Shown here: piece after piece, positions 1 to 64,000 of the stretch
Numbering within the stretch: position 1 is the stretch's first letter
Layout of the letters: every line of letters starts with the position of its first letter
Origin: Hyaloperonospora brassicae
Lineage: Eukaryota > Oomycota > Peronosporomycetes > Peronosporales > Peronosporaceae
DNA: 64,000 nucleotides
Direction of reading: 5' to 3'
Assembly: GCA_947650285.1 (NCBI GenBank)
Contig: CANTFL010000228.1
Location: 1-64,000 of the forward strand
Made by a program: the position numbers and the translations under genes
Notes under the pieces: generated by a model
The model's database searches: none
Seen by the model: only the letters and a program-made list of their open reading frames with translations
Told to the model about the DNA's origin: nothing

Positions 1-227
1 TGGTGAAGCAAGGCTACCTTCTCCCTTTCGGCGACAAGTTCATTTTGAATGAACTTGGCTATAGCGGCATGTTGTTGGCCTCTGTCTAGAGACTCCAACA
101 TGGCGCTAATGGCGAACTCGCCTACGGTAGAACTCATTCGTTCTACCGCACTCCATTCGATTTCACTCAAATGGGTAAACCCTTCACGCGTGGCGTGAAA
201 GGTCTCTTCATCGTCCAACATTTTCAT
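1..227 (-). CDS. Gypsy gag, N-terminal fragment (cut by window edge)
   Basis: On the minus strand an ATG at 227 opens a frame that stays open for about 75 codons to the window edge. The product closely matches the N-terminus of the gag protein of the intact gypsy element at 44295, with scattered substitutions, so this is a second copy of that family. It has the same local inverted repeats, for example the 9-bp arms around 125-148 and 40-60. The frame is undamaged in the visible part. The element continues to the left outside the window, so nothing can be said of its pol. Confidence 0.85.
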   Translation of the reverse strand, partial: MKMLDDEETFHATREGFTHLSEIEWSAVERMSSTVGEFAISAMLESLDRGQQHAAIAKFIQNELVAEREKVALLH

Positions 228-271
228 GTTGGATGTTGTGGTCCTTGGAAGGACTACAAAGTGCTACCAGG

Positions 272-665
272 CGTAACGGGGCACACCTTTGCGTGAACTT
301 AACGCAAGGGTTTCGGTGCGCCCGACAGACGTACACGAGGCAAACGAGGAAGCGTAGGTAAGGTAAAAGTAGAACTGTTATATTAATATAATTAAGTCTT
401 TTAACTACTGTCTCTCTGTTTGACTTAACTGAATTATACTAATCTAACTGAGTGTATGGTGACCGATCGTCACCACTCATTGCGCGCGTCTTGCGGCGAT
501 TGGTGAGTTGATATCATCAAGATATCAACCAATGAACAGACTCTTTGGTCGACCCATCAATATCACCACTATTGGTGATATTGTTATAGGAATATCCAAA
601 ATTATATACTTTATTGTCATTATCTCTCAAATGACAATTTCCATGTAACGGGCTGCCCCGTTACG
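272..665 (-). repeat. LTR of the minus-strand gypsy copy
   Basis: This is the 5' LTR of the element whose gag begins at 227. It aligns over its length with the 391-bp LTRs at 43860 and 51451 but with many substitutions and altered hairpin loops, so it is an older copy or another subfamily. The ends are degenerate: the expected terminal TG/CA read CG at both edges (CGTAACGGGG at 272, GTTACG at 665). Bases 228-271 are the leader and primer-binding region, which matches the leader of the intact element. Confidence 0.85.
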
Positions 666-18849: not shown

Positions 18850-20870
18850 TCAGGACAAATCCGTCGAACGGAGTGGAAACACCGTCACTACGCCATGTAG
18901 CTCGCGAGATGCGATCTGGCGTCGGCTCAATGACAGCTGCAGCGCAGTGAGGATGCGTGGCTTGCCATGGATCGAGTGATGTCCAACACCACAGATCAGC
19001 AAGCACCGGCGAATGCGGTGTGTCTGGCAATACTCGATTGCTTCGCGAGCCACCCAGAGCGCTTCCATCACGATCATGCCATGCAGATCGATCGGCCGCT
19101 GGTGTCTATAGCGCGAATCAAATAAACAAACAAATTAGACGCTACTGACGCCATATGCGTTCACCATTACACCGTCTTCGCCAGCTCACTTGAGATGCTC
19201 TTCGTGCGCCAAAAAGTACTCGTGAGCCCACTGGCGCTGGGCATCACGATGTTCACGACGAGCCGTGCTCAATCTGGTCAGCAACGGCAGAATGCGTTAG
19301 ACGCCCTTCACCACTGCCCCACAATACAAAACAATCACTTACTCGCGAATACGCTCGCTTGCAAGAACGTGTTGACCGCGCCTGAATGACGCCAAAACGT
19401 CACAATAGCGATTGCTGAGTTTCTCTCGCGCTGCATTGACCTTATGCTTGCTAGAAACGAGCGTCCAGTTTTCAGTCTGTCCACCTTGACGTAACTTGCA
19501 AGTTGTCTTGGCAGCAGCAATCTCTTCCTCAGCTTCGGCAGCTTCAGCTGCTGCTTCCATTTCGTTCGCTGCACTTAGTGGAGGAGAATGCTGTTCAACG
19601 AGCGGCAAGTTATACACTTCACGCAGAGCGGCCTCTGTAACATCAGAGCTACACCCGTTCAAAATAAAAGTCTATCCACACACGAAAAAAGAGAAGAAAT
19701 CAAACCCACGGCATCTTCTACCACGACTCACATAACCTCACAATGATACCGTACAGTGTGAATGACGCTGCTGCTGACGCTCGGCAGTAACTTCTTCAGC
19801 CGCTCGAGCTTCAGCTGCGTCGTAATGCTCGACTCAAGACGGTGGCGATGATCCCACGCACTGTTCGCAGCCACTTCGCTGCCCTTACCCACGTGATCAC
19901 GCGCTGGCAGCGTCGGGAACGCTATCGACAAAGGCAAAGGTTTCGGCGGCGGTCTGTCATGCAACCGCACTTGAATCGGCTCGTGTGCTCTGCGTCGCTG
20001 CTGCTTCAGTGGGTTTCTCGCCTGTTGCGTTGGCACGCTGTACTTGCTGCCAGTCGCTAATGCTGGGAAATGTCCCAGTGACCCGACATCCGGTCCATTA
20101 ATAATCAGCTCCCGGTGTCGTGCAGCCGCACGTGCGTCGGCACTCACGACGGTCGCATAGCTCTGGACATGATCCAACGCGTGCAAATGCTGCAGCGCTT
20201 CGGCCGCTTTGTTCACGTCGTACTGGTGCCGGTCCAGCACGTCTTCGATCACGTCCACTTTGTAGTCTGGAAACAGCTCAAGCAGCAGCTGCAGTGGATG
20301 AACATCAGCATCCACTACAGCATTAGCATTGGCAGCATCGGCTTTCTCTCCTTCTTCTTCTTCTTCTCCTTCTTCTTCTTCGAGACGCAGCAACACCTGC
20401 TGAACAAAAGCGCCGTCCGTCGCAAGCAGACCGTCTCGCTCGGCATCAGGTAACTGCTCCAGAAGAGCAATGAACGAACTCTTGTGGTCGAGTCCCAAAC
20501 TGCTGCAGAGCTCGTGGAGCGCGAGCGTCGAGTGGGTCCGGCGCTCCTCCAGTGTCCGCTGCTCCTCTTCGCGCATCGTCTTGATGGCGACGAGGCTCAA
20601 AACTTCGTCCACTGCGCGCGACACGTCGCCGTCGCACGAGGTCAGCGCTCGGCTTACTTCAGCTCGCGTGACTTTCGACGGCCCCGGCACGCCGTAGGCG
20701 TCCAGCGGTGCAGTCATTTCCAGCACAACGTCCACGCGCGCGGCGGTCATTGCGTCTTCTGCGTCTGCGATACGGCACAGATCAAGTGACAGGTCCCCGT
20801 CGGCCGTCGACGGCAGCAAAGGCCGCGGCATATTCCGCGGCGCAGGAGGGGCGACGTCCGACGCTCTCAT
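18850..20870 (-). CDS. CUE - DUF1771 - Smr domain protein (four exons)
   Basis: Exons read as 20870-19732, 19648-19343, 19273-19190 and 19105-18850 (594 residues). Introns of 83, 69 and 84 nt all have GT...AG ends and preserve phase 2. The first exon holds a CUE-like three-helix motif (LLLELFPDYKVDVIEDVL...) and a glutamate run encoded by a TTC/CTC repeat at about 20348-20390. Exon 3 is a DUF1771 helix (ARREHRDAQRQWAHEYFLAH). Exon 4 is an Smr domain with the signature DLHGM and GVGHHSIHGKPRI. CUE domains bind ubiquitin and Smr domains act on nucleic acid, often as endonucleases in quality control (compare N4BP2 and yeast Cue2). A role in RNA or translation surveillance is inferred. The start at 20870 avoids overlap with the divergent gene; an upstream ATG at about 21051 in frame would overlap it. 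Confidence 0.85.
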
Positions 20871-40464: not shown

Positions 40465-42169
40465 GTTGTGGCCAGTCGATGGCGTGGTGCAATTTGGTGT
40501 GTCGATGATGTGGCACTGGTGTGGACACTCACGTTGCAAGGGACGACGGCCTTGTCGACGTGTATACGCACGTATACGGACCGAGTAGCAAACGGTTTGT
40601 TGTGGATGGTGAGCGTCGAGGTTTTTTCGCATGTTGCGATGTCCAAGTTTTATTTTAAATGTTAGACCAATTTTGAAACTGACAGAGCCATCTCACAAGG
40701 TCTATCGGAACACTGATTGTGATCATTAAGGGCCATTTGATGGGATCTCGTTGACGTTGCTGAGGTAGCAATATATGTCATTTACTGCAGCGACCGAACG
40801 CGAGAAGCGAAGTGCTGTTAGGTCTGGTGTTTGGAGCAATGGCAGACATTGCTACTCAGGAACATCGAAGTGCTATCAGAAAGCGATATGATTGGCACTT
40901 TTGTCAGCGAAGAATGCGAGCGACAGGTACACCGGGAAGTGTAGGGTCGTCACTTGATGGTTCGCATGTTCATTGCAAAAAATGCGAAATGCAAAAGGGA
41001 CCTCGCGATCGGTCACAGCAGAAGTTGGTAGAAGTAGTTTGCCGCTCTCTAGTCTATGTGTGATCAGGACTTGCTAATTTTGCAGTGAGACTCGGAGGTG
41101 GACCATGTGTCTCCAAGTTTAGCTGCACGAGTACAACATGTGGCCAAACGACACATCGCGCGGCGTGGCACAGCTACGATCACATCTGGCTTGTGTCGCG
41201 ATTTTGAGTTGATGCAAACAGAACGAGTTCATGATGACATCGTAAACAGAGATGAATGTGATATAGGTAGGTCGATCATCAATCTTCTTGAAATGTATGT
41301 GTGCATCCACGAAAGGCTTTTTGTAGTGGGTGCGAGACGAACTCGACCTATATGGCTGCGAATAGTAAGCATACGTTTGGTGCTGACGTGCTCTAGAAGG
41401 CGGCAAAAATGTATCCATACCGACACCCAGGAAACGTATGGTAGGATCTGCACCATACCGTAATGACGACCATAAGCTTTCGAAAAAGGCAAGAACGCAA
41501 CCAGCGATGCCACGAGGTCTACGCGACACTGAGGCATAGAAGAGTATATCATACCCTACACGAGAACGACGCTAAAGCCACATCCGTGAGTGCAATATAA
41601 GCGGCGCAACTTCTACCGGATGACGCAGCTTCATCGGGAACAGCATTCCCTGGTAATTTGTGTGACACGAAAAGACGCAGCACCGATCCATCATGTTTGA
41701 CGCATCCGGTCGTAGACAGATAGCGACATATGTGGTACAATGGACAAAGACAGACAAAGAACACGGTTGTCATGAATGGACCATCTTCGAGTTGTTGGTT
41801 CCTGACCTCGTTAGAATGGATACGTTGTCTGCTTGCGTACTCTCGCACTGGTCGTTCCGTGATCGATGCGGCGTGACCATCTCCGCTACCAGCACATCGC
41901 GTCATTACACTCGACTTCTTGTACGCAGACTGCAAGCTGGGAGAAGAACGACGGCTGTACACATAATCCGTAGTCGAACGTGGGTGGCTCTTGGGGATAT
42001 CACTTGCAAAAGTACCGTATCACGAGGCATCATCTGGTTGTGTCTGTGAGTGATGTGTGCACCCACCACTGCTCGAGACATGTCTCGCATTCCTCGATCC
42101 TGACAAGCGACTTGTGAAGTCAGAACGCTTTTCACTCCCTCAACCTCACGCTACTTCCACACCTCTCCC
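40465..42169. other. Intergenic; start of transposon-rich zone
   Basis: No supported gene. Overlapping open frames at 41549-41962 (minus) and 41693-42049 (plus) have no domains. A block at 41862-41921 resembles 43321-43380, suggesting an old duplication. The 60 bp before 42170 resemble the sequence before the intact homologue at 52787 (shared ACTCCCTCAACCTC), so this is the remains of its promoter. Confidence 0.5.
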
Positions 42170-42781
42170 ATGGACCTGTCCGAGATCCCGTTCAACGTTC
42201 CGATCATCATCCACTCGATCCGCATGCAGACCAATCTGTAGAACCCTCTCGGATCCAAGAAAGCGCGTTGCCTAACCAACAATCGGGACATGTACGAGCA
42301 CGTCATCTTGCACCGTGTGCGCGACGACAAGGTCGCTATCCAGTCTCGACGCAATGGTCGCTTCCTGCGAGTTCGCCCGTCTGGATTATGTATATTCGAC
42401 CTTACGGAACATGGTAACTGAGAACTCTTTACCATGGAGACGAACGCGGAGTGCTCTCTTTAATTTGTGTCGTGCCACACGGGAAAGTTTCTCAAGTGTG
42501 GCAGAAATGGTGTTCAGTGTACAGATCAAAGTTATGGAAATTTGCGAGCGTAGAAGATTATAGGGCCTCGCATCTCTGCTACCATCACTCCGATACAGCG
42601 TCATGCATCAAATCAACGGTTCGTCCTAGCCCATAAGGACTGTCTGAACTTGGTCGTGGAGCTTGCAAAGTGTGGCAAAACACCGGACGAGATCGAGCAG
42701 ATTGTGACGAGACTGTTTGACGGTCCAGCTGATCTTTATGCTTCAAGCTCGACGGTGGCCGTCCCAGTGGCAAAAGAGTAG
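42170..42781 (+). pseudogene. Decayed copy of the small beta-trefoil-like gene
   Basis: It aligns along its whole length (204 codons, one fewer than the intact gene at 52787) with the same start MDLS.IPFN.PII and the same end. It has at least four premature stops in the conserved frame, including TAG at 42239-42241 (CAG in the intact copy), TGA at 42419-42421 (TGG in the intact copy) and TAA at 42461-42463, plus another TAG further on. No net frameshift is evident. The stretch RDMYEHVILHRVRDDKVAIQ is perfectly kept, so inactivation looks fairly recent. Confidence 0.85.
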
Positions 42782-43854
42782 ACGCGACCACCGCACGCTT
42801 ACTTGCGCTCCAAGTCTTTGGTCAACAGTCTGTGGTCAATGGTTAGTCGTTGGTTAACATTGAGCAGTCAGACAGACAGTTAAGATAATAACCACCGCGA
42901 TTCGTGTCAGCTCACACATGGGGGTCCTCACGTCAATGGAGTTCGTCGTGAACTGTGTCGGGAAGACACCGACGCGAGAATATGTGAGTCGACCACGTAG
43001 TATATGGCCATGACGACATCCAAATTCAATCGCTTTTCGCTGGAGAACGCTTCCAGCTGGTGCATGGAGTTTGCAACATCGTCTTCCATGCGCCTGGTTT
43101 GTAGTAGCAGCGGCTAATGCAAAGTGTCGACGAGTGGTCGCTCTGATAGCGAAGAAAGCCTATTGGAAACAAGACCGGTGTTTCCACCAGGTCGATCATC
43201 CATCGCAGTCACGAAATCCTTGACACCACTTCCTACGAGGGCATCACGGGAGTGACAATACACCCGACGCATCATTATCAATACATCCGGCCCAACCACC
43301 AACATTGATGAGGTGTACGCAATCGATGCGGCCTGACCATCTCTGATATCATCCATTGCGTCCTTCCACTCGCCTCCTTGTGCCGAAAATAACTTGGCCT
43401 GACACATTCAAGTTTCTGGAAAGCTGCTTTACGAGATTGGCATGGATGTGTTTGACATCTCACGTTATCACAGGCAAAGGAACTTTGTGGAGCTGTCTTG
43501 ATCTGAAGAGGAAGCGTGGGGTGTAAGCAAACCGCCCATCAGACTCCTTACTTCCATTGTTTATGTGCATCGACAGCGTGAGACTTGCAAATTGTTTCTG
43601 AGGCAACTTCGAACTGATGTCTCTGAATTACGGTGCGTTGTATCCATACTTAGTACTGCCATGTGACACCACGCCTTTGGTTTGTAGAAGGGCCATCAAT
43701 TCTGTAAGGCTACGTGATGGACTTGCAGTGATAGTAAACAGAGAGAATAAATGAAGGAATGAAGGAACGCAGGCGGCACCGGACGTCGTCCTTGCTTGGG
43801 CCTCGCTTCATCGCAATCTGCCAGCCATGTCGACGGCCGTTTGTACGTGCAATG
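42782..43854. other. Left flank of the young gypsy element
   Basis: No supported gene. A block at 43321-43380 resembles 41862-41921, consistent with a local duplication that includes the region upstream of the beta-trefoil gene. The target duplication GTCAA at 43855-43859 follows. Confidence 0.45.
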
Positions 43855-43859
43855 GTCAA

Positions 43860-44250
43860 TGTAACGGGGCAGCCCGTTACATGAAATTGTCACTTTAAGG
43901 AAAGTGACAATAAAGAATATAAAGATGGATATTCTTTAAAACAATATCACCAAAGTGGTGATATTGAAGGGTCGACCAAAGGGTCTGTTCATTGGTTGAT
44001 ATCGTGATGATATCAACCCACCAATCGCCGCAAGACGCGCGCAATGAGTGGTGACGAGACGTCACCATACATGCAGTTATATTAGTATAATTGAATTAAG
44101 TCAAACGAAGAGACAGTAGTTTAAAGACTTAATTTATTAATATAACAGTTCTACTTTTACCCTACCTACGCTTCCTCGCTTGCCACGTGTACGTCCGTCG
44201 GGGCACCCAAATCCCTTGCGTTAAGTTACGCAAGGGTGTGCCCCGTTACA
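43860..44250 (+). repeat. Gypsy 5' LTR
   Basis: 391 bp, TGTAACGGGG...CCCCGTTACA, so the termini are 10-bp inverted repeats. It is identical by eye to 51451-51841. It contains strong stems, for example 11-bp arms ATTGTCACTTT/AAAGTGACAAT and 10-bp arms GGTTGATATC/GATATCAACC. Confidence 0.97.
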
Positions 44251-44252
44251 CC

Positions 44253-44270
44253 TGGTAGCACTTTGTAGTC
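44253..44270 (+). other. Probable gypsy primer-binding site
   Basis: Two bases after the LTR the sequence starts TGGTAGCACTTTGTAG, and TGG is what the complement of a tRNA CCA end gives. The same sequence follows the LTR of the minus-strand copy at 1-665. I cannot name the tRNA; initiator Met ends CUACCA and would pair over six bases only. Confidence 0.5.
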
Positions 44271-44294
44271 CTTCCAAGGACCACATCATCCAAC

Positions 44295-45428
44295 ATGAAC
44301 ATGTTGGATAAAGAAGACACCTTTCACGCCACGCGTGAAGGGTTTACCCATCTGAGTGACATCGAATGGGGTGCGGTAGAACGAATGAGTTCTACCGTAG
44401 GCGAACTCGTCGTCAGCACCATGTTGGAGTCTCTAGACAGAGACCAACAACATGCCGCTATCGCCAAGTTCATTCAAAATGAACTTGCCATCGAGAGGGA
44501 GAAAGTAGCCTTGCTTCACCAGCAAGGCTCTCAACAGGCCGAGCAGTTGAGAGAACTCGGTGCTCAACAGACGGAGCTGTTGAGACAGCAGCAATTCCAT
44601 GCTGCTGTGGGCGGGACGGCGCATGCGCGTCGTCCCAAAGTCATGAAAGTTGACATCTCCAAGTACAGTGGAGTCCCGGAGGACTCTCTGTTACTATGGT
44701 TTGTCGAACTCGACAGAGCCCTAAGGGCTCGTCGCGTCGAAGATGAGCAAATGAAACTCACATTTGCTCAGACCCACTTGGCAGGGCGTGCCAAAACTTG
44801 GTCCTTGGGACTCGAGAGTAGCGACCCAAATGTGTTTAGGTCGCTAGATGACTTCAAGTCCCGGCTCAGACAAACGTTTGAGCCGCCACGTGCTGAGTTC
44901 AGGGCTCGCTCAGAGCTCCTGAAACTGAAGCAGGGTAAGCGTGATGTGCACGCTTACGCACAACATATACGACTCCTTGCGAGTAGTATAACTGCCAACC
45001 CAGTACGTGAACACACGTTGATTACGGTGTTCATGCAAGGGCTCGCAGAAGGGCCCGTCAGGAGCCATCTGTTCCGCCTTGAGCTGAATACGCTTGAAGA
45101 AGCGATATCAGCCGCGGAACAGGAAGACTTTAGCATGAGACAGGCTCATTCTAGCTCAAACTCTTACCGTCCACCGAGACGACAAGAGATCGGAGGTCCA
45201 GAACCAATGGACCTCTGCTATGTTGAGAGCGAGAGACCTCGCTCTACAAACAACAAGCGATTGCAGAGGTGCAATCGCTGTCAGAAGTTAGGGCACTACG
45301 CATATGAGTGTAGTGCTCCACGTCCAGTACCAAACAGTACTGAGCGAAATGGACGACAATTTGCCATAAAGGGCAATAAGCGTGGGTCCAGCGCTGTTGC
45401 GAAACCACAACAGCGAGACGCACCATAA
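44295..45428 (+). CDS. Gypsy gag
   Basis: 377 residues from ATG 44295. It has an N-terminal coiled coil rich in Glu/Gln/Leu, then a retrotransposon gag core (residues about 115-260: WFVELDRALRARRVEDEQMK, FKSRLRQTFEPPRAEF, AYAQHIRLLASSI). One CCHC zinc knuckle follows (CNRCQKLGHYAYEC) near nt 45265-45310. Ends at TAA 45426-45428; the protease frame continues in the same reading frame directly after, so Gag-Pol could be made by stop-codon readthrough, or the stop is a mutation. The protein forms the virus-like particle. Confidence 0.9.
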   Translation: MNMLDKEDTFHATREGFTHLSDIEWGAVERMSSTVGELVVSTMLESLDRDQQHAAIAKFIQNELAIEREKVALLHQQGSQQAEQLRELGAQQTELLRQQQFHAAVGGTAHARRPKVMKVDISKYSGVPEDSLLLWFVELDRALRARRVEDEQMKLTFAQTHLAGRAKTWSLGLESSDPNVFRSLDDFKSRLRQTFEPPRAEFRARSELLKLKQGKRDVHAYAQHIRLLASSITANPVREHTLITVFMQGLAEGPVRSHLFRLELNTLEEAISAAEQEDFSMRQAHSSSNSYRPPRRQEIGGPEPMDLCYVESERPRSTNNKRLQRCNRCQKLGHYAYECSAPRPVPNSTERNGRQFAIKGNKRGSSAVAKPQQRDAP

Positions 45429-46826
45429 AAATGGTCGGGGTCAGTAGGGGCAGAGCGCCCTACTGATCCAGCAACCTCAAGAGGATTTGCAAAATTTTTG
45501 AAGAAGGTTGCTCCAGATACACAATCATTGTGTGTCTCTGCACCTGGTGATGACGTTTCGCTCATCACCTTGAAGTTGGAAGCGACATTTGATTTGTCGC
45601 TTCGTGCCCTAGTAGACTGTGGGGCGTCAAACAACTTTATTCGATGCCAGTCAATAGAGAGTCGTAGGCTCAAGTTCGATGAGCGCGACATTCCTCTCAC
45701 GAGGATGACGGTGCGCCTTGCAACAGGCGCATCGATTACCGTTGAGAAACGTGTAGTAGGAATCCACTACACGTTAGAGGGCGAACAGTACGATGATGAC
45801 TTCATCGTATTGGATCTGGATTACAAATTTGATGTCATCCTGGTATTACTTTGGCTCAGAAGGTACGAGCCAAGGGTGAGCTGGCAACATCGATCCGTGA
45901 AGATGCCTGCCGCTTGTTCATCAGATGGCCATCTGATGAACATCTTGGAGCGTCCACAAGCGTGTGGATGTTCTGCGAGTGAGTGCGATGGCCTCACTTG
46001 CGGTACGGTCGTTAGCACGACTGCACAAGATCACAGTGTAGTTGATCACTACACTGTGGAGCAAGCTCCCGGCGGCTGTACAGAAGTACAGGCTGCGCCG
46101 AAGGTCCACCACTCGAATAAGTCGAGTGGACCGGGACATGGATGCATGCCTAGCGGGCAGCATCTTAGAAGAAAGAAGTCTGTTGCCCCCAAGGGGCAAC
46201 ATGAAAATCCTAGGTCGACTGGAGAGTCGACCGTAGAGGATCGGTTCCTGACTGTGGTTGCACAGCCACAGTCGGAAGACGTCGAGGGAATAAGTCCCCA
46301 CGTACTTGAGGAAGGAATTCCTCAAGAGTCGCTTGCTGAGGGATTAGGCCCTCAGCAACCTGTGGAAGCAAGTTCCCAGGAAGAAACCGAGACGTTGAAC
46401 GTCTTGGTTAATGACGGATCAAGCGTAGGCGCTTATACGCTTGATCTGATTGTGCCTCCGAAGTTGACTTCGGAGATAACTCAGTTGCCAACGCTAGAAC
46501 CGAAACGGTTCTTGCGTGATCTGCGTAGTGGCAAAGTCAAGCAGATCTGCATACTCGTCACAGAGGACGAGTATGTGACTGACATTCGGTCGGCAACAGT
46601 ATTTGCTGAGAACGAACGGGTTCTCAGCAGCTCATCGATGTACGAAAGTGTCCTCGATGAGAAGACTCGGATTGAGCGATACGCGTCCCAATCCTGGGAG
46701 TCACTTCAGGCAAATCCTTTGTATAAGGATTCGATCGAATTCAGGGATGTGTTCCCTGAATCCGTACCTTGCGAGTTGCCTAAGGACAAAGGCACTCGAC
46801 ACGAGATCGAGCTCAAACCGGGCTAG
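45429..46826 (+). CDS. Gypsy aspartic protease region of pol
   Basis: It is in frame with gag, across the TAA. The retroviral-type protease carries VDCGASNNFI near 45615-45640 (Cys in place of Ser/Thr, common in this lineage) and the flap region ALATGASITVEKRVV. A linker of about 250 residues follows, and the frame ends at TAG 46824-46826. That stop falls within the KPG.KYC segment, which is the N-terminal edge of reverse transcriptase, and the same frame continues immediately after it. I therefore regard the TAG as a nonsense mutation. No ATG marks the start of this stretch. Confidence 0.85.
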   Translation, partial: KWSGSVGAERPTDPATSRGFAKFLKKVAPDTQSLCVSAPGDDVSLITLKLEATFDLSLRALVDCGASNNFIRCQSIESRRLKFDERDIPLTRMTVRLATGASITVEKRVVGIHYTLEGEQYDDDFIVLDLDYKFDVILVLLWLRRYEPRVSWQHRSVKMPAACSSDGHLMNILERPQACGCSASECDGLTCGTVVSTTAQDHSVVDHYTVEQAPGGCTEVQAAPKVHHSNKSSGPGHGCMPSGQHLRRKKSVAPKGQHENPRSTGESTVEDRFLTVVAQPQSEDVEGISPHVLEEGIPQESLAEGLGPQQPVEASSQEETETLNVLVNDGSSVGAYTLDLIVPPKLTSEITQLPTLEPKRFLRDLRSGKVKQICILVTEDEYVTDIRSATVFAENERVLSSSSMYESVLDEKTRIERYASQSWESLQANPLYKDSIEFRDVFPESVPCELPKDKGTRHEIELKPG

Positions 46827-49170
46827 AAATACTGTGTCATGAAGCAGTGGCCACTGCCTCGTGAACAAGTGATAGCGATCGACAAGTTCTTTGCCGACCG
46901 CTTAGCAGCGGGCCATGTGAGGGAATCAACATCCCCTCACAGCTCTCCGACCTTCTGTGTGCGAAAGGCCACAGGAGGGTGGCGGATAGTGCACGCATTC
47001 AACAAGTTGAATGATGCAACGGTACCGGCTCAGACGCCGATACCGAGGAAGGACGTAATCATAGATGGTATGTCAAAGAGTACCATCTTTTCGTCCATGG
47101 ATCTGATGGATGGGTTCTATCAGATTCTCATGCGTGAACGGGACATCCCGTTCACGGCAGTGAGTACCCCCAGCGGGATGCTGTGGGGGTGGCTAGTTAT
47201 GCCACAGGGGCTAAGCAATGCCCCTGCAACATTCAACAGATGTGTCACGACTATGTTGAGACCGGTGCGAGACTTCGCACCGAGTTGCTTCGTCGATGTA
47301 TTCGTCCATAGCCGGGCTATGGACGGAAAGACGGACGTTGAAGTTCACAGAACTCACGTTCGTCAGGTTCTTCAACTTATGCGCAAGCATAAGTTGTACG
47401 CCAACCTCAAGAAGTGTATATTCGCGGCTAGCAAAATACCACTTCTTGGGTGCATCGTGGGTAAACACGGCGTACGCCCTGATCCCGAAAAGATCAAGGC
47501 GATCACCGACTGGCCAGTGCCAGTCGATGTCAAGGGACTAAGGAAGTTCCTTGGTCTTGCTGCGTACTTGCACAAGTACTCGCGCAACTACGCCGAGATG
47601 ACTGTTCATCTTTCTTGCTTGCTCAAGGAAAATGTCAAGTGGTCATGGAACGCTGAGTGCCAGCGTTCCTTTGAAGGTATCAAGCGGAGCTTGATGCAAT
47701 CGCCGATCTTGGCGATTGCAGATCAGGACAGACCATTTCATGTGGTCTGTGACGCCAGCGATATCGCAATCGGCTTTGCGTTAATGCAGTTCGATGCAGA
47801 TGGCGCGGAGCGCGTCATCTGTTATCAGTCGCGTCAGCTGCAAGCAGCTGAGCGTAATTACCCAGTGCCTGACAAGAAACTCCTTGCCATTAAATACGCA
47901 CTGGCTAAGTTTCGCGTCTATCTCTTGGGAGATAGACCGTTTGTTGTCTACACGGACCATGCGTCATTACGCACGGCCGTAAACAGCCCACACCTCTCGC
48001 AAAGAATGGCGAGGTGGCTGTCTTTCTTCGCGGAGTATAACTTCTCCGTGGAGTATAAACCGGGACGACTCAATGTCGTCGCGGATGCTCTTTCGCGCCG
48101 GCCCGATTTCGCGCCGGACGCACAATCCAACAATGAGGATAAGCCCACTGTTGCGACACTGTCAGTCAGTGTCCCGTCGTCAAGTTTACTTGACGACGTA
48201 CGAAAGGCATACGCGGAAGATAGGGATCTTCTGCGATTGATGGATCATCTGGTGAATCCATCCAGTAAATCCATGAGGGATTTACCGGCTTTGTACCGAT
48301 CCTCATCGGATCGGTATAGTACACGCAACGGATTGCTGTACTATACAGCTGTTGCCGACGACACGCCTCGTGTCGTCGTACCCGCTCATCATGATTTGCG
48401 GTTGCGCATCATGTACGAGTGTCACGATGCCCCAACAAGCGGCCATCGTGTAAGGGAAAAGACTTACCTCACGGTAAGTCGTGACTTTTACTGGCCCCGC
48501 CAGTATCAGTTTGTTCGCAAGTACATACGTGCTTGCGAAGTTTGTCAACGGGTGAAGCCTAGTCCTTCATCCCGTGCGCCATTGCAGCCTCTGCCTGTTC
48601 CGACAGAGTGCTGGCAGTCCGTTTCAATGGACTTCGTCTTCGGGTTTCCCGAAGACGCTCACAAGAATAATGGTATTCTTGTGTTTGTAGACCGATTCAG
48701 CAAGATGGTCCATCTTGCTGCTGTCCCTGAGTCAATCAAGGCTCAAGGTTGTGCTCGTGTCTTTCTAGACACGGTCTTTAGACTCCACGGGTTACCCCGT
48801 GAACTCGTATCCGACCGTGACCCTCGGTTCACGGCGGAATTTTGGCAAACCGTGTTCCGTACTCTCGGAACACGATTGAAGATGTCCACTTCTGACCATC
48901 CAGAAACAGATGGTCAGACGGAACGTGCGAACCGTGTCCTCGAAGAGATCCTTCGAGGATATGTCCACTCGTTTCCGAGTTGGAGCGAATTCCTACCCAT
49001 GGTGGAATTCGCCATCAATAATTCGGTGCATGCTTCAACACAGCACACACCGTTTTACGTGAATGGCCTACGCCATCCACGTGTGCCCACCCTTCTCGAG
49101 TGTGACTCTTGGATAAGGGGGGAGGAACTCGCTCGAGCAAAAACCGTTTTGGCTCTTGCTCATCACGTGT
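46827..49170 (+). CDS. Gypsy reverse transcriptase - RNase H - integrase core
   Basis: Same frame as gag and protease. The reverse transcriptase contains SSMDLMDGFYQI and PQGLSNAPATFNR. The usual (Y/F)xDD box reads CFVDV at 47286-47300, with GTC (Val) at 47292-47294 where the first catalytic Asp is expected, so the enzyme should be inactive. RNase H (VVCDASDIAIGFALMQF, YTDHASLRTAV) follows. The integrase has an HHCC zinc region (about 48385-48555) and the DDE core (SMDFVFGFP, SDRDPRF, TDGQTERANR). The frame ceases to be meaningful near 49150-49190, where a frameshift moves the coding frame. Confidence 0.9.
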
Positions 49171-50341
49171 CGACGCTAACGTCGTCACGTATGATGCCGA
49201 TGTCGATCAAGTCGACATCGATGAAGAAGATCATCTCAGTAATAGCGGCGACGCTATTACTGACGCGGATGATGATGATGATGCTGGTATATTCAGCATC
49301 GTCAACGATTATGCCAGAGAGGAAAACGACAACCTCGCTAAAGAAGAGAAGAACCTCTTAGCAGTGCGCACGAAGCGCACTGAAATACACTTTAATGAGT
49401 CAGCAGAGAACTTCCTGCTGACTCGAGAAGCGGTAGTCCTTTTCGTTCAGGACTCCATCGCAAATGCGGTGGACCGTCAGAAACGGAACGCAGACAAGAA
49501 TGGAAGAGCAAATGTTATTTCATTTAAGTTTAACGACCTAGTACTACTGTCAACGGTAAACCTACCTGGACATGCAGTCACTAGTGTCGGCAGTAGCAAA
49601 CTACTGCCGAAATACATTGGGCCATTTCGAGTGTTGCATCGCAAGGGCAATGCATACACACTCGAATTGCCACGTAGGATGCGCACGCATCCTACGTTTT
49701 ACGTGGGGAGACTCAGGCCGTACTGTCAGTACGAGCCTTCTTCTTCCGATGAAGATAGCCCCCACGTTCAAGAACATCCATCAAGTTCTTGCGTTCGCGC
49801 TCCAGACGATCCGTCTGGTCGCGCAGATATATTACCTCGGTATTCAACCGAGATATCTCCCCGCGAGCTGTCGCCAGCTCGCCGAATAGGGAGCGGACAT
49901 CCCGCTCGACCTGAAGCTGCGCCGTGGCATAATCGGCGCGATCCCTCGCCCGATCAGCCTCGTGACCCTTGCGGTTCTTCCGCACGGTATCGGTCAAAGC
50001 TTAGCGCCGATCGCGCTCGTGCTTCAAGTCATCGCGCAATTCATCGATTGCGCGATCCATCTCGTAAGGGTCGAGATGGTAAACATAATCATCTGGAGGA
50101 GGTCTTTCCTCCTCCACCACATCCTTTGGTGGATGCTCACGGTGATCGACGCTTTCTAGTGGAGCGTATCTTGAATCACCGTGACGATTCAGGATCAAGG
50201 ACGAGCTACCTCGTCCAGTGGCGGGGGTATCCACCCTCTTGGAACAGCTGGGAGCCCCGCTCTCAGCTGTTGATGGATGTTGAAGGTCTCGTCCGCCAGT
50301 ATGACGAGACCCATCCGATGAGTCCTGTGGCCCATCGGTAA
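49170..50341 (+). CDS. Gypsy integrase C-terminus and chromodomain
   Basis: It lies one frame away from the preceding part. An acidic stretch (DADVDQVDIDEEDHL...) leads to the integrase C-terminal GPY/F-like region (LLPKYIGPFRVLHRKGNAY, near 49600-49660). A linker follows, then a chromodomain at about 50147-50330: VERILNHRDDSGSRTSYLVQ, WRGYPPSWNSWEPR. Chromodomains direct integration to particular chromatin marks and define chromoviruses. The 3' 630 bp overlap the antisense frame on the other strand. The exact left limit is set by the frameshift and is approximate. Confidence 0.85.
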
Positions 50342-51320
50342 ACACGCGCCCAAGGCGCTTGTAGACGGATTGCAAGTTTGCAATCGCGTCACGCATCTCA
50401 GCCGAGATGTGTGCCCTTCCCCAGGGCGAATTTAGGGAGTACACATCCCTATGTGCACGCTGCGAGTTGTCAACACAATTCGCACAAGGGTCTCCCCATG
50501 TGAGGCAAGGAATGCCTGCCTCACTCGATAAACAATGCAACCGGTACCTAGCACCGGTTGGCGTTCGCCGTTCGAACCTGAGGCGTGTTGCCTCAAGTTT
50601 CTTGAGCCACCCTTCTCGTCCAAAATTCTTTACGTTTTGGACGAACGCGTTCCACGCAGCCAAAAGCGATGTTTTGTCACGCTTTTGGTTGCTGTTGTAC
50701 CATCGATGTCTAAGAAAGACATCGAGATAAAAATCTTCTTCAGCGCGAAAGTTCTTCGCGCTGGAACTCAAGCCGTGAAGCTCGGTTGCATCGAATAAGG
50801 GTATTCGATGGTTTTGGCCTGTCTCGTGAGACAGGCTATTGATGAGTTGTTCGGGCAAACGCCACGGCTTCAACTCATAACGCTTCACAGTGGTACCCTT
50901 GTCGGTACCACGGCTCCCAGATTGACGACGGCTCGCACCATCGTCATCACGCTCGTGCGAAGACGCACGAGCCGGCGGTGGTGAAGAATAGAACTTACCA
51001 CCCTGATCATCATCATCATCACTGCCGAACAGACTGTGATGCAAATCACGAGTCCGTTCGTTCGACAGTGGTCTTGGCGAATACTGAGGCGTCGCCGGTG
51101 AGCGAGACGCCTCTGGAGCATTGCCCGAGTCAGACACGTCTGACTCGCCAGAGTAGATGACCTCTACATCAGGGTCATCGTGCGCACGCGGTGTGATACC
51201 GCGTGCACCTGCAGCACCTGTTGCTGCAGGCGAAGAAGAGGCGGCAGACGACGAAGCGTCTGCCGCAGAGGCTTGCACAGCACCAGGCTGTGTGGGTCTT
51301 AAGTCACCTCGCATAGACAT
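49713..51320 (-). CDS. Antisense open frame of the gypsy element
   Basis: On the opposite strand to gag-pol an ATG at 51320, 130 bp inside the 3' LTR, opens 439 codons to TAA at 50001-50003. The same frame then stays open for a further 95 codons to 49713, so the original product was probably about 535 residues with one nonsense change. The N-terminal 150 residues are Ala/Ser/Asp-rich and acidic. Residues about 165-345 look globular, with many aromatic residues and several Cys (CLSSEAG, CLTWGDPCANCVDN). The C-terminus is a strong coiled coil (LQVERDVRSLFGELATARGE...LERERKNL). No known family is recognised. The last 630 bp are antisense to the integrase tail and chromodomain. Confidence 0.65.
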
Positions 51321-51439
51321 GTTAACTATGCGAGGTCAAGCGGAAAGTGAATGGAACGGACCCAACAAGTGCTCCCTGTCCCAATGGTGGCCAACGGGTG
51401 GCCTCCATGTTTTCGATAGTCACACGGTGACTATCAGTT

Positions 51440-51450
51440 AAGGGGGGTGA
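51440..51450 (+). other. Gypsy polypurine tract
   Basis: AAGGGGGGTGA lies directly before the 3' LTR. This is the expected plus-strand primer. Confidence 0.8.
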
Positions 51451-51841
51451 TGTAACGGGGCAGCCCGTTACATGAAATTGTCACTTTAAGGAAAGTGACA
51501 ATAAAGAATATAAAGATGGATATTCTTTAAAACAATATCACCAAAGTGGTGATATTGAAGGGTCGACCAAAGGGTCTGTTCATTGGTTGATATCGTGATG
51601 ATATCAACCCACCAATCGCCGCAAGACGCGCGCAATGAGTGGTGACGAGACGTCACCATACATGCAGTTATATTAGTATAATTGAATTAAGTCAAACGAA
51701 GAGACAGTAGTTTAAAGACTTAATTTATTAATATAACAGTTCTACTTTTACCCTACCTACGCTTCCTCGCTTGCCACGTGTACGTCCGTCGGGGCACCCA
51801 AATCCCTTGCGTTAAGTTACGCAAGGGTGTGCCCCGTTACA
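51451..51841 (+). repeat. Gypsy 3' LTR
   Basis: 391 bp, no difference from the 5' LTR found by eye. It is followed by the target duplication GTCAA at 51842-51846. Confidence 0.97.
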
Positions 51842-51846
51842 GTCAA

Positions 51847-52786
51847 CCCACATAAGTCATGGCTACCAATTATGTTATGGACGTATAGATGGTAAGCATT
51901 GGACTGATCGGAAAGCAAGTACGGCCCCGTTGTTACATCATTCGTGAAGATTAGCACAAGTGTGGTGTTTCATTCATTAACAGAGTGCGGTCAGACTGGA
52001 TACTCACATCTCTATGCAGAGCTACCGCAACATCATTCAAGTTGAAATACCGAATTTGGAAGAAGAGACTATGGGAGTTCTGCACAGAGAGCAGGCACGA
52101 CTAAGGGGGAAAGAAAGAATACGTACGCAATACCTGAGGGTTATAAGCAACAATCACCCACGACAAACTGGGTATTGCCCTCACTATAGACGCTGCCGAC
52201 AAATGTCGAGGGGGAAGAAAATGACATTGCGCTAATTATGACAGGTCGACGCGACCTTCGACAAGAAGACACTGAGGTAAACTTATTGACTATGATGATG
52301 CAAGCTAGGTAGCATATCATTCCAATGACTTCTGTAATACATCGACCGCGATCAGTGTATCTCAATGACAGAAACACGGATACCGCAATTTGACATGTTT
52401 GAGCCGTTGGTTTGCGACTGCACTGGAATCGATGGGGCTTGCGTCAGATTCTTGCCGACCGTTCCCGCGAAACGTCTCACTCTGGTGGGATGGCGCATAT
52501 CATCTATGAGACTGGTATCGTAATTTCAATTTCGACTCGTTACCGCATTGACGAGACCGTTGGAGGTGACCGCAACGTCAGTATTTTCACTCAGATCGTT
52601 TGTACTACCGTCAGTCTTGGCATCAGGCTCGTTATGCACATTACAACGGCATCATCGAGTTTCTCTGCAATAGCTTTGTCTACCGCTTTTTATACGAAAA
52701 GATCTTGAATAGCTCCTGGCGAGTGATCACTAAATCAAAACGCATTTTACTCCCTCAACCTCGCACGCTGCTACCACATCTCTACC
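51847..52786. other. Upstream region of the beta-trefoil gene
   Basis: No supported gene. The last 60 bp (about 52727-52786) match the region before the pseudogene at 42170 (shared CTCCCTCAACCTC block) and are the likely core promoter or leader. Confidence 0.45.
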
Positions 52787-53401
52787 ATGGACCTGTCCGA
52801 TATTCCGTTCAACACGCCGATCATCATGCAATCCCTTCACACGCAGAAGAATTTGCAGAACCCTCCCGGATCCAAGATAGCCCGTTGCGTGACCGACAAT
52901 CGGGACATGTACGAGCACGTCATCTTGCACCGCGTGCGCGACGATAAGGTCGCTATCCAGTCCCGACGCAACGTTCACTTCCTGCGAGTTCGCCCGTCTG
53001 GAATATGTATGTTTGTCCTTACGGAAATTGCTTACTGGGATCTCTTTACCATGGAGACTAACGCAGAGTGCTCTCTTCACATTGTGTCGCACTACACGGG
53101 AAAGGTCCTCCAGTGCGCCGACAATGGCGTCGTCGAGTGTGCCAAGCACAATGGTGGGGATAGGGTAGCGTGGAGGATTGTCGAGCCCCGCACCAGTGCT
53201 ACCATCACTCCTATTCAGGAGCATGCATTGAACTCGCGCTACGCCTTAGTCGATAAGGATCGCCAAAACTTTGTCATGGAGCTGACGAAGAATGGTAAAA
53301 CACCGGACGAGATCGAGCAGATCGTGACGAGACTGTTTGACGGCCCAGCTGATGTTTCTGCTTCCAGCTCGACAGCAGCCGTGCCGGCTGCAAAGAAGTA
53401 G
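52787..53401 (+). CDS. Small conserved protein, probable beta-trefoil/fascin-like fold
   Basis: Intronless frame of 204 residues from ATG 52787, in a clear context (CTACCATGG). Residues about 1-145 contain repeated beta-type segments (VILHRVRDDKVAIQSRRNVH, FLRVRPSGICMF, LFTMETNAECSLHIVSHYTG, VAWRIVEP). These resemble fascin- or ricin-type beta-trefoil repeats, where 'VAIQS..N..FLRV' and 'W.I.EP' are common. The C-terminal 45 residues form a helix (GKTPDEIEQIVTRLFDG) and a Ser/Ala tail ending KK. There is no signal peptide. Function unknown; actin or carbohydrate binding would be guesses. A pseudogene copy is at 42170, and the pair is now split by the gypsy insertion. Confidence 0.8.
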   Translation: MDLSDIPFNTPIIMQSLHTQKNLQNPPGSKIARCVTDNRDMYEHVILHRVRDDKVAIQSRRNVHFLRVRPSGICMFVLTEIAYWDLFTMETNAECSLHIVSHYTGKVLQCADNGVVECAKHNGGDRVAWRIVEPRTSATITPIQEHALNSRYALVDKDRQNFVMELTKNGKTPDEIEQIVTRLFDGPADVSASSSTAAVPAAKK

Positions 53402-61158: not shown

Positions 61159-61761
61159 TGTAATGATTATTGAGTCAAGCACTCATAAGGAATATAAACG
61201 TGAAATGAAACAAACGGAGAACAGCTATACCTGTAGCGGTGCTACACAGCTCTTTAAGACAGAGGAAGACTTAATGCTAAATGAGAAACTTTGGTTTTAC
61301 GTACCCGATCAAAAATTCAACAGCTCCGAGAGCCAAGGTTTGGTTCAAAGAATCCGACTCAGAGAGTCAACAAGCTCAGAGAGCTTACGGTACCTATTCC
61401 GGGGGGGGCCAAACGATTCAAAGAATCAAACGCACAGAGTGCACAAGGAGTAGCTGCCTAAATAAGGCGTTGCTACCTCCTTAACGATCACAAGACGCCT
61501 CAAGAGGCACGTGTCTATTGGATCAAAATGGGAACTGAACTTTATTTCTTCTTTTAACCTAAAAGAACACCTTAGAACAACGGAATTCACCTACTCGCTA
61601 ATGTCCTATATAAACGTTTCAAAAGATCTCGTAATCAATGGCTAACAGACATCAGTCTTCAACAATTGAAACTGTGTTAGAATATTACTTAAAAGGGGAT
61701 CTCATCCCTTGTGTGTACCACACCTATTGTCGACTACCAGTCGACGTGTAACCCCGTTACA
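61159..61761 (-). repeat. Probable 3' LTR of a second gypsy family
   Basis: On the minus strand the LTR starts TGTAACGGGGTTACACG at 61761, directly after a polypurine tract (complement of CCCTCCCCCACC, 61762-61773). The far end is placed at 61159, where the plus strand reads TGTAATGATT, giving matching TGTAA.. inverted ends and about 603 bp. The right boundary is good, the left boundary tentative. The first ten bases match the other gypsy family, but the remainder does not. Confidence 0.5.
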
Positions 61762-61773
61762 CCCTCCCCCACC
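61762..61773 (-). other. Polypurine tract of the second gypsy element
   Basis: On the minus strand GGTGGGGGAGGG abuts the LTR start TGTAACGGGG. Confidence 0.7.
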
Positions 61774-61869
61774 AGACTGACGTTTCCACAAAACGTCAAT
61801 CGAGATCTTTCCCCGAAGAGGACGGTGTGTGCGCGCTTCAACCTTACGGTTGGCAAAACACAAAACACC

Positions 61870-63169
61870 ATGGCATCGCCACCCCATGAGTCCTCGACTC
61901 TCTCGTCCTACCTCGGCATCGATGTGGAGGTGGATAATTGTAGCGATACCGATATTTATGGTGAAGAGAGGACAATGTCCGACTCACCAGTGCAAGAAGC
62001 ACCGCCTCATACTGCACCGAACCCATTTGCCGAGCGTGGCGAAGCCAACGCGCCATCGGCGCCGCCTCATACACCCATCGTGGGCGATACCATCATCATC
62101 AACCCGCTCGATGAGCAACAACAGCTGGATATCCAATGAGAGGAGAGCGCTCAGCGCCGTATGCAGCTTTCTGCAACCCTTGAGGGTCGTCGTGGCTATC
62201 TTTTCACCCACCCGGTGTAGAAGAGCGTATACGCCAAACGACAGGTCGTTATTTGACAACGTGGGCCATTGGCGCAGAGCCAAAATCTTCTGATGAGGTG
62301 GCGAGTCGACAGGTACTTCGTGAGAGATACCTGCAACCTCACTTGACGACTCAAAGTCAATGCAAGTTGCGACTCGACACGCAAACACGGGGTGCACCGG
62401 TTCCACCGATGAAGGTTATATCCACCTCTTATTCGAAGGCGAATCTCAGGAGGAAGAAGACAACGCTTTTGTTCGCTGGGTGCATCGGAAACAACACATC
62501 AGCAGCGTGTTGGCTCTCAGAGCAAGTGCCGATGTGGTAGATGTTCGTCTAGAACGAAAGTGTCGGTATGATTAAGCCAAGCTTAAAGTTAGAGGCCAGT
62601 TGCGAACTCGCACACGCTATGCTCCGGCTGTGCCGATTGATGTGGGTGTCGGTCAATCGGTACCCAACTACCCACCTGCCTCCACCATTATTGGTGAGAA
62701 GCGCTCTCGGTCGAGGGATGACCCCTGCCACGATGTTCAAGGAGATCAACGGCGTATGGGCAATCCTGTCGAAGGGGTGTCTCGAACTCCTACTAGTTCT
62801 CCGACTCCGGGTACACTCGCCACTTCACCAGATACTGGTATTGACCCTAACGACGACGTCGTTTCAGGAGTCGCTCCACATGGAACTGGCGGTTCCCTTT
62901 CTCATCGAGCAGCGTCGGAGTTGGTCGGTATAGCGAAGGAGGAGCATGAGAAGGTGCTTCTCGAGCTAAGTGGTCTCCGTGAGACATTGGGTAAGACCCA
63001 AAGTTTGTTTGACGCGATGCGGGACCTTGTCCAGGTGTTGGAGTTGGGCCAAGCCCGGATGGAGGCTCAGCTTGACCTCCTGATGCGGATTCAAAAACCG
63101 ATGGAAAGGCCAACCTATGTTGCGCAAGCGACTCCAAGTTCAATTGGGACGGATCGCGATACGGATTAA
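61870..63169 (+). pseudogene. Antisense coding region of the second gypsy element (broken)
   Basis: It runs opposite to pol, with an ATG at 61870, 109 bp inside the LTR. The frame runs to TGA 62137-62139 and is resumed beyond it (EESAQRRMQLSATLEGRRGY). It then continues through about three frameshifts (frames 62200-62370, 62360-62575) into an open stretch of about 190 codons, 62600-63169. The N-terminus is acidic and Pro/Ser-rich (SSTLSSYLGIDVEV...). The C-terminal part contains a Lys/Arg motif (GEKRSRSRDD) and a strong coiled coil (EEHEKVLLELSGLRETLGKT...). It ends opposite the integrase C-terminal region. The layout matches the antisense frame of the first gypsy family, although I see no clear residue-level similarity. 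Confidence 0.55.
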
Positions 63170-64000
63170 GCAAGCCAACGTAGAACACGTGGTGTGTGCG
63201 CAGTTTGCGCGGAAGATTGAGCGTACACGCAAGTCCCTTCTTGGAGACGACCGTGAATGGTCCAATGAAGCGTGGACGCACTTTTGTCTTTAAGACGGCG
63301 GACATTACATTTGTAGGTAGGTTTTTAGCATTGAGTAGAACTTGGTCTTCGACCTCATAACGTTCAATACAACCTCTGCCTTCAGCATAAGATTTTTCCT
63401 TCTGCTTGTCTTGGCTATCAGCCAGTGCGTCACTTACGTGTCGTAACACATTCAAGCGCGTTGCGAGAAACTCGCTTTTCTGTTTATGAACAGTAGAAGG
63501 GCTGATATCAGCAAGCCGATCGGCAACTCCTCCCCCACCAATCCCTGAACCACGCAGTGGTAGCGTTAACGAAACGCGAGGGTGTGTGAGACCATTCACG
63601 TAAAACGGTGTGTAGCCGGTGGAGGCATGCACGGCTTTATTCAACGCAAACTCAACGACGGGGAGCATCGAACTCCAACGCTTAGGCATTTCAGCGCAAA
63701 AACTGCGCAAGATGTCACCGATGATGCGATTCACTCGCTCGGTTTGACCATCAGTCTGCGGATGATCCGCTGTGGACATGTCCAAACGTGTGCCGAGCAC
63801 CATTAAGATGGATTTCCAAAACTTTCCAGTGAAGCGAGGATCTTTTTCAGAGACAATTGACAACGACATACCGTGTTGTCGAAACACTCGATAGATAAAC
63901 AGCGTAGCTGTACCCTCACCATCAATGGTATCTGGAACCGCTGCTAAATAAGCCATCTTGCTCAAACGGTCAACAAAGACCACAATACCCGTATTTACAT
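62780..64000 (-). CDS. Second gypsy element: integrase and broken chromodomain (cut by window edge)
   Basis: Reading leftwards from the window edge, the frame shows the integrase core (FVDRLSKMAYLAAVPDTIDG, SEKDPRFTGKFW, HPQTDGQTERVNRI), the C-terminal region (VLKTKVRPRFIGPFTVVSKK, LRTHHVFYVGLLNP) and a Pro-rich linker. A chromodomain follows (GNRQFHVERLLKR). The open frame stops at TAG 62847-62849 inside the chromodomain. The same frame then continues recognisably (GQYQYLVKWRVYPESEN) to two further stops near 62795. The chromodomain is therefore broken in this copy. The family differs from the element at 43860-51841. Confidence 0.85.

Follow-up and report, generated by a model that had tools for sequence, protein, structure and literature searches.

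Perfect local hairpins throughout a Ty3/gypsy family of the downy mildew Hyaloperonospora brassicae, with pairing regained and compensated in spreading lineages

Background

Genome-scale ordered RNA structure (GORS), a property of persistent RNA viruses defined by a folding energy more than 3% beyond that of shuffled sequence along the genome, is represented by 18 transcripts with values of -3.6 to 16.0% (PMC3950689). We describe a Ty3/gypsy long terminal repeat (LTR) retrotransposon, hereafter family A, which is filled with perfect local hairpins, together with a second gypsy family, family B, with shorter ones. Both lie within the first 64,000 nt of contig CANTFL010000228.1 of the oomycete Hyaloperonospora brassicae (assembly GCA_947650285.1), a stretch that we refer to as the window, in which family A occupies positions 43860 to 51841.

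Family A resembles GORS in that folding above the shuffled level extends across the whole genome, coding parts included, and is found in some related genomes only. Against the threshold of 3%, its predicted folding energy lies 44.9% (plus strand) and 44.6% (minus strand) beyond shuffled (62 windows of 240 nt per strand; mean z -7.1 and -7.6), far above the upper value of 16.0%, whereas six family B loci, at 8.5-14.9% on the strand as read, fall within the viral range, the window size and program differing between the two studies (PMC3950689). The corresponding values for controls are 2.9% for a copia element and -0.2% for a host stretch. A further difference is that family A possesses perfect short stems of a family-set length, alike on both strands, and does so within an LTR retrotransposon. 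GORS belongs to positive-strand RNA virus genomes, and family A is consequently GORS-like rather than a member of that class.

By its LTRs, target-site copy and domain order, family A is a chromodomain Ty3/gypsy family. As in Ty3/gypsy chromoviruses, it has TG...CA LTRs, a short (5-bp) target-site copy and the order gag, protease, reverse transcriptase, RNase H, integrase, chromodomain; its hairpin saturation and a constrained antisense open reading frame (ORF) in its 3' part are its own. At least 40 places in the genome (100.6 Mb in 898 contigs), the window included, carry family A, the others being 97-98% identical. Searches of viral and genome contig collections for relatives yielded 0 confirmed loci, a separate homology search gave protein relatives only, and the hairpin comparison is confined to this genome. 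Searches of open-licence PMC papers gave no description of such a hairpin-saturated element, or of a retrotransposon whose stem length is set by family.

Hairpin saturation of family A

Over positions 43859-51841, with LTR hairpins counted in both LTRs, the count of perfect inverted repeats that have arms of at least 9 bp and loops of up to 12 nt is 70, against a mean of 0.39 and a maximum of 2 in 100 dinucleotide-preserving shuffles; with arms of at least 10 bp there are 40 (shuffled mean 0.13, maximum 1). Chance and base composition are thereby ruled out as the source of the hairpins. The initial annotation of this DNA had proposed the saturation from 21 listed hairpins, 20 of which are perfect, with arms of at least 9 bp, at the ends given for them, 6 of these extending by a further 1-2 bp per side; the remaining one, placed at 44746-44770, is also perfect and in truth spans 44744-44770. 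Its estimate of 0.4 stems expected by chance was right, and the comparison with codon- and dinucleotide-preserving shuffles that it had called for leaves them far below the observed count.

Coding sequence shows the same excess against 200 synonymous-codon shuffles: among stems with arms of at least 9 bp, gag has 7 (mean 0.11, maximum 2), pr-pol 28 (mean 0.43, maximum 4) and the chromodomain tail 6 (mean 0.17, maximum 2). Density, measured as stems per kb with arms of at least 8 bp, is about 16 in the LTR and leader, about 16 in the 3' part past the sense ORF and 11.9 in pr-pol. Synonymous-codon choice, one of the causes that had been suggested, is excluded, given that synonymous shuffles erase the signal and that stem density in the non-coding LTR and leader equals or exceeds that of the genes. 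Moreover, stems whose third codon positions lie opposite one another form the least common phase within genes (20 stems versus 37 and 33 in the other phases; 394 versus 433 and 486 in shuffles). For these reasons coding limits the hairpins and is not their cause, and protein-coding sequence proves able to accommodate perfect hairpins at intervals of about 80 nt (94 stems with arms of at least 8 bp in 7,591 nt).

A single repeated motif is likewise ruled out: arms, as had been noticed from the outset, and also loops vary between hairpins, and no common loop motif is apparent by eye. A search of 43500-52200 against Rfam gave 0 matches, and hence no curated RNA family. Outside the element and an old copy at 1-664, 2-kb bins of the window contain just 0-1 stems with arms of at least 9 bp. 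The element is laid out as follows.

43855..43859, plus strand: left target-site copy, gtcaa, 5 bp, read from the sequence
43860..51841, plus strand: Ty3/gypsy element, family A, with perfect local hairpins throughout and the domains below
43860..44250, plus strand: 5' LTR, 391 nt, TGTAAC...GTTACA, an identical repeat
44295..45428, plus strand: gag ORF with Retrotrans_gag, Ty3_capsid and a zinc knuckle (below cut-off), holding the 7 stems given above
45498..46826, plus strand: ORF with the retroviral aspartyl protease domain RVP_2
46839..49361, plus strand: ORF with reverse transcriptase, RNase H and integrase domains, its frame interrupted in the window copy
49109..50341, plus strand: ORF with SH3_Tf2-1 and chromodomain
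50001..51320, minus strand: antisense ORF of 439 codons, constrained among copies, with relatives in downy mildews
51451..51841, plus strand: 3' LTR, 391 nt, identical to the 5' LTR and with the same hairpins
51842..51846, plus strand: right target-site copy, gtcaa, 5 bp, read from the sequence

The pol frame is longer in other family A copies, being open for up to 1,666 codons among those listed.

With one LTR omitted, arm lengths are distributed as 30 stems of 8 bp, 29 of 9, 23 of 10, 9 of 11, 2 of 12 and 1 of 14, and thus peak at 8-10 bp with few past 11. Loops peak at 4-6 nt and are mostly 2-8 nt long, which makes for fast local folding, and the commonest full span of a hairpin is 23-24 nt (35 of 92 with arms of at least 8 bp). 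Against 94 such stems with loops of 0-12 nt, there are 10 with loops of 13-30 nt (about 1.5 expected). Most stems of 8 bp extend further (51 of 70), whereas those of 10 bp extend at the chance level (6 of 25). Individual hairpins include the following.

43859-43882, 43886-43911, 43911-43938, 43942-43966, 43994-44018, 44049-44067, 44213-44236: hairpins of the 5' LTR
44374..44397: arm 9, loop 6
45919..45938: perfect palindrome of 20 nt
46032..46058: arm 11, loop 5
48175..48198: arm 11, loop 2, at the same place in locus L033 with both sides changed
48635..48657: arm 10, loop 3
48660..48683: arm 10, loop 4
48698..48720: arm 11, loop 1
49236..49263: arm 12, loop 4 (helix 39), with the most two-sided changes, in 4 of 12 pairs
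50616..50644: arm 10, loop 9
51306..51336: arm 11, loop 9

A second gypsy family with shorter stems

Families A and B share a common hairpin habit with a family-specific stem length, 8-10 bp in A and 5 bp in B. Family B is represented in the window by one element:

61766..64000, plus strand: start of a family B element, cut at the window end, with an LTR-like end just before

Six of the 30 loci recovered by an RNase H search belong to this sister family (L037, L044 and L050-L053). They are near-copies of each other and hence not independent; five of the six align to family A with about 72% identity across some 270 nt, and the window copy is 87-89% identical to them over 820 nt. L044 is family B in the opposite orientation.

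Judged by arms of at least 7 bp, family B seems empty of hairpins. When loops of 3-9 nt are counted, however, stems of exactly 5 bp in L050 number 71 against 14.0 expected (z 15.7), alongside 103 of 4 bp (55.6 expected), 8 of 6 bp (3.8 expected) and none longer. The 5-bp stems number 55 in L037 (14.5 expected) and 60 in L044 (14.0 expected), and the window copy, from 61766, has 31 (9.8 expected) and a single longer stem, of 8 bp. By chance, the pair flanking a 5-bp stem should be Watson-Crick in 25% of cases. The observed numbers are 8 of 75 for L050, 9 of 63 for L037 and 5 of 30 for the window copy, a deficit with p 0.003 for L050 and p 0.002 for L050 and the window copy pooled. Since the sixth pair is rarer than chance, family B avoids longer stems. 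Over the 820 nt compared, its paired sites changed less than its unpaired ones.

Controls from the same genome, comprising the copia element, host stretches and sequence adjoining the family A element, have no stem excess. The initial annotation had regarded the copia element, host genes and a second gypsy family as free of the trait by eye, which holds for copia and the host stretches, and fails for the second gypsy family if the element at 61.2-64 kb was the one meant. A minus-strand ORF with an SH3_Tf2-1 domain also lies within the family B element (61190-64000).

Regain and loss of pairs among copies

Pairing in family A is regained and compensated in spreading lineages, and mostly lost in stranded copies. 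Across 18 aligned sequences, the 345 pairs defined on the window copy are intact in 96.8% of cells, a value biased towards that source copy, against 31.5-40.2% when partners are slid. Changes on both sides of a pair occur in 19 cells of this alignment, against 4.8 in shuffled data (0 of 500 shuffles reach 19) and 3-11 with slid partners; this test covers 18 of the 45 aligned sequences, uses the window-copy structure and treats G-U as paired. One of the five measures of this test runs the opposite way (64 further pair types versus 66.6 shuffled). The 3,303 nt of locus L033, which has 89% identity to the window copy, contain 71 stems with arms of at least 6 bp, where the window copy has 58 in the aligned 3,085 nt, and several stems of L033 stand at shared places with both sides differing. 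Compensation is shown for family A only, because family B is comparable over just 820 nt, without a two-sided Watson-Crick change.

Changes were also counted on a tree of 44 sequences. Its internal branches hold 59 regained pairs, 86 lost and 8 double changes, and its terminal branches 51 regained, 306 lost and 5 double changes. Normalised to the numbers of broken and whole pairs, the ratio of regain to loss is 2.2 for terminal branches, 6.6 for internal ones and 19.7 for the deep branch; our own rough estimate for this ratio without selection is about one third. These counts use per-column parsimony with root branches omitted, and any recombination between subfamilies would inflate both kinds of count. 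The 45-sequence alignment excludes the six family B loci as well as L001-L008, which occupy the same places as the window copy and L009-L015; L021 was removed after alignment for an insertion (in the tree, branch and broken-pair counts). Among young copies, 5 of 20 have zero broken pairs of 495-496, with pairs defined on a close relative.

Pairing on one strand or on both

Family A seems to require Watson-Crick pairing of both its strands, leaning no more than mildly to the sense strand, because G-U is scarce in stems, losses show no preference for G-T and the two strands fold equally. G-T mismatches in stems are few and just somewhat above A-C (11 versus 4 and 20 versus 12 in two counts), and pairs lost to G-T and to A-C number 20 and 30 on internal and 71 and 116 on terminal branches, in the same proportion on both. 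A fold required in the sense RNA alone should tolerate G-U. Predicted open stretches of 21 nt (probability above 0.001) are scarcer than in shuffled sequence on both strands of family A (6.3 versus 13.8% on the plus and 7.8 versus 14.3% on the minus strand), and likewise in family B (7.4 versus 18.4%).

As a separate observation, the excess of A-C over G-T losses on terminal branches (116 versus 71; pol loci L029-L058 and L009-L028) hints at strand-biased mutation.

A constrained antisense reading frame

The distribution of variable sites indicates that the antisense ORF of the 3' part is under coding constraint: among 19 copies (the 3' set, which excludes L021 and L028), 20, 18 and 41 such sites fall on its codon positions 1 to 3 (p 0.0007). 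In 16 of the 19, the frame stays open across 329 or more codons of the 1.1-kb tail. It has no Pfam match, and the named ones among its 16 listed protein relatives come from H. brassicae, H. arabidopsidis and Peronospora matthiolae.

Potential explanations for the hairpins

Selection for the fold is favoured because pairs are regained and compensated. The form of it that we tentatively prefer, and regard as possible, is selection for self-folding of both strands, perhaps countering strand annealing and small-RNA targeting. Under this hypothesis, selection would act on both strands at once, and sense and antisense transcripts would fold into small hairpins while emerging, with stems too short to pass as long double-stranded RNA. 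The two transcripts could meet, and would then pair more slowly if each carried hairpins; folded strands would also be slow to pair with small RNAs. Short stems and slow pairing are thus proposed to result in less double-stranded RNA and a poorer target for host silencing, and an antisense gene in the 3' part would offer a reason for both strands to matter. A parallel exists in RNA phage genomes, where structure on both strands keeps plus and minus apart: local folding would similarly hinder annealing in family A, which is, however, a retrotransposon without known RNA replication. In Phytophthora infestans the majority of small RNAs map to transposons, LTR retrotransposons above all, which we count in favour of this hypothesis (PMC3522703). 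We also count in its favour the short loops of family A, the predicted scarcity of open 21-nt stretches on its two strands and the avoidance of a sixth pair in family B.

Several observations weigh on the other side. The small RNAs of P. infestans match copia too (PMC3522703), yet the copia element of the present genome lacks such structure. The 21-mers of a GC-rich host stretch fold almost as strongly as family A 21-mers (mean -2.47 versus -2.65), and self-folding of small RNAs alone is therefore a weak reason. Hairpin spacing is no more regular than random, with the largest gaps at 217 nt. No two-sided Watson-Crick change was seen in the 820 nt compared for family B. Finally, the mild lean of G-T over A-C (49 versus 30, p 0.02, two counts pooled by hand) hints at some sense-strand preference. 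A wider version, in which the gypsy elements of this downy mildew obey a hairpin rule with family-specific stem length, selected on both strands as a general shield against silencing or sense-antisense pairing, seems to us somewhat doubtful.

A mutational origin would dispense with use altogether: during reverse transcription, the new strand would fold back and use one arm as the template for its partner, across about 10 nt in family A or 5 nt in family B, making perfect palindromes of imperfect ones. Such copying by reverse transcriptase, which the initial annotation had raised as self-templated switching, agrees with stems that are perfect, strand-blind and Watson-Crick in coding and non-coding parts alike, and with the merely chance extension of family A stems past 10 bp. 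Quasi-palindrome correction by template switching would similarly give perfect short-loop inverted repeats on either strand. Private changes of young copies are also fewer in stems than elsewhere (25 of 116 versus 30% expected, p 0.054), and in one hairpin three neighbouring pairs were gained in a single arm on one branch. However, fold-back copying and quasi-palindrome correction predict runs of change in one arm and a preferred arm, and apart from that hairpin neither is evident in family A: adjacent changes show no excess in stems (32 among 442, versus 70 among 1,117 elsewhere), and pairs regained on internal branches divide into 29 in the 5' arm and 30 in the 3' arm. Furthermore, the identical LTRs of the window copy imply a recent round of reverse transcription, and nonetheless 14 of its 496 pairs are broken. 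The avoidance of a sixth pair in family B is also left unexplained. We consequently disfavour fold-back copying and consider it unlikely.

Other readings place the function in one kind of molecule. A fold of the sense RNA that makes the genomic RNA compact, stable or packageable, aiding packaging, dimer formation or RNA survival, would suit the structure far above shuffled across the element, the compensation and the mild G-T lean, but G-U in stems is nearly as rare as A-C, the strands fold equally, no loop motif shared by the hairpins is seen by eye and the excess is mainly of short-loop stems (94 versus 10), whereas a compact fold would also use long-range pairs; we judge it quite unlikely. 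Of the suggestion that selection for a folded nucleic acid is the cause, the selective part is borne out by regain and compensation, and a fold of the sense RNA only is not well supported. Hairpins might instead act in single-stranded DNA, protecting or marking complementary DNA (cDNA) or the DNA of chromosomal copies, which would agree with stems that are Watson-Crick only, strand-symmetric and also present in LTRs. Nevertheless, 5-bp stems are weak in DNA and we are aware of no reason for cDNA to carry dozens of differing hairpins, and this alternative appears improbable.

Were selection on both strands the cause, family A would exemplify a mobile element constrained along its whole sequence independently of any motif or protein; were the cause mutational, a reverse transcriptase would be continually rewriting its own genome into palindromes. 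Sister families of unlike stem length and a copia element free of the trait, all in one genome, provide matched natural material for studying the role of genome-wide structure.

Genomic setting

An older, partial copy of family A lies at the start of the window:

1..664, minus strand: older copy of the family A LTR and start, 90.7% identical, its hairpins partly decayed

A relic of another LTR at 1374-1800 is 73% identical to the family A LTR over 223 nt and has no stem excess today; it has matches of 72-83% identity at 39 other genomic places. The inserted element is flanked by two copies of a 670-nt repeat (42117-42781 and 52732-53401) that share 80% identity, and no hairpin excess was found around them. 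At 19000-20000, next to an ORF encoding a CUE domain, stems of at least 5 bp are in mild, isolated excess (10 versus 4.0, z 3.3), which may be due to chance given 64 bins. The window also encodes a CobW-like host protein, whose best matches are from Peronospora matthiolae and Hyaloperonospora arabidopsidis, both at 78%.

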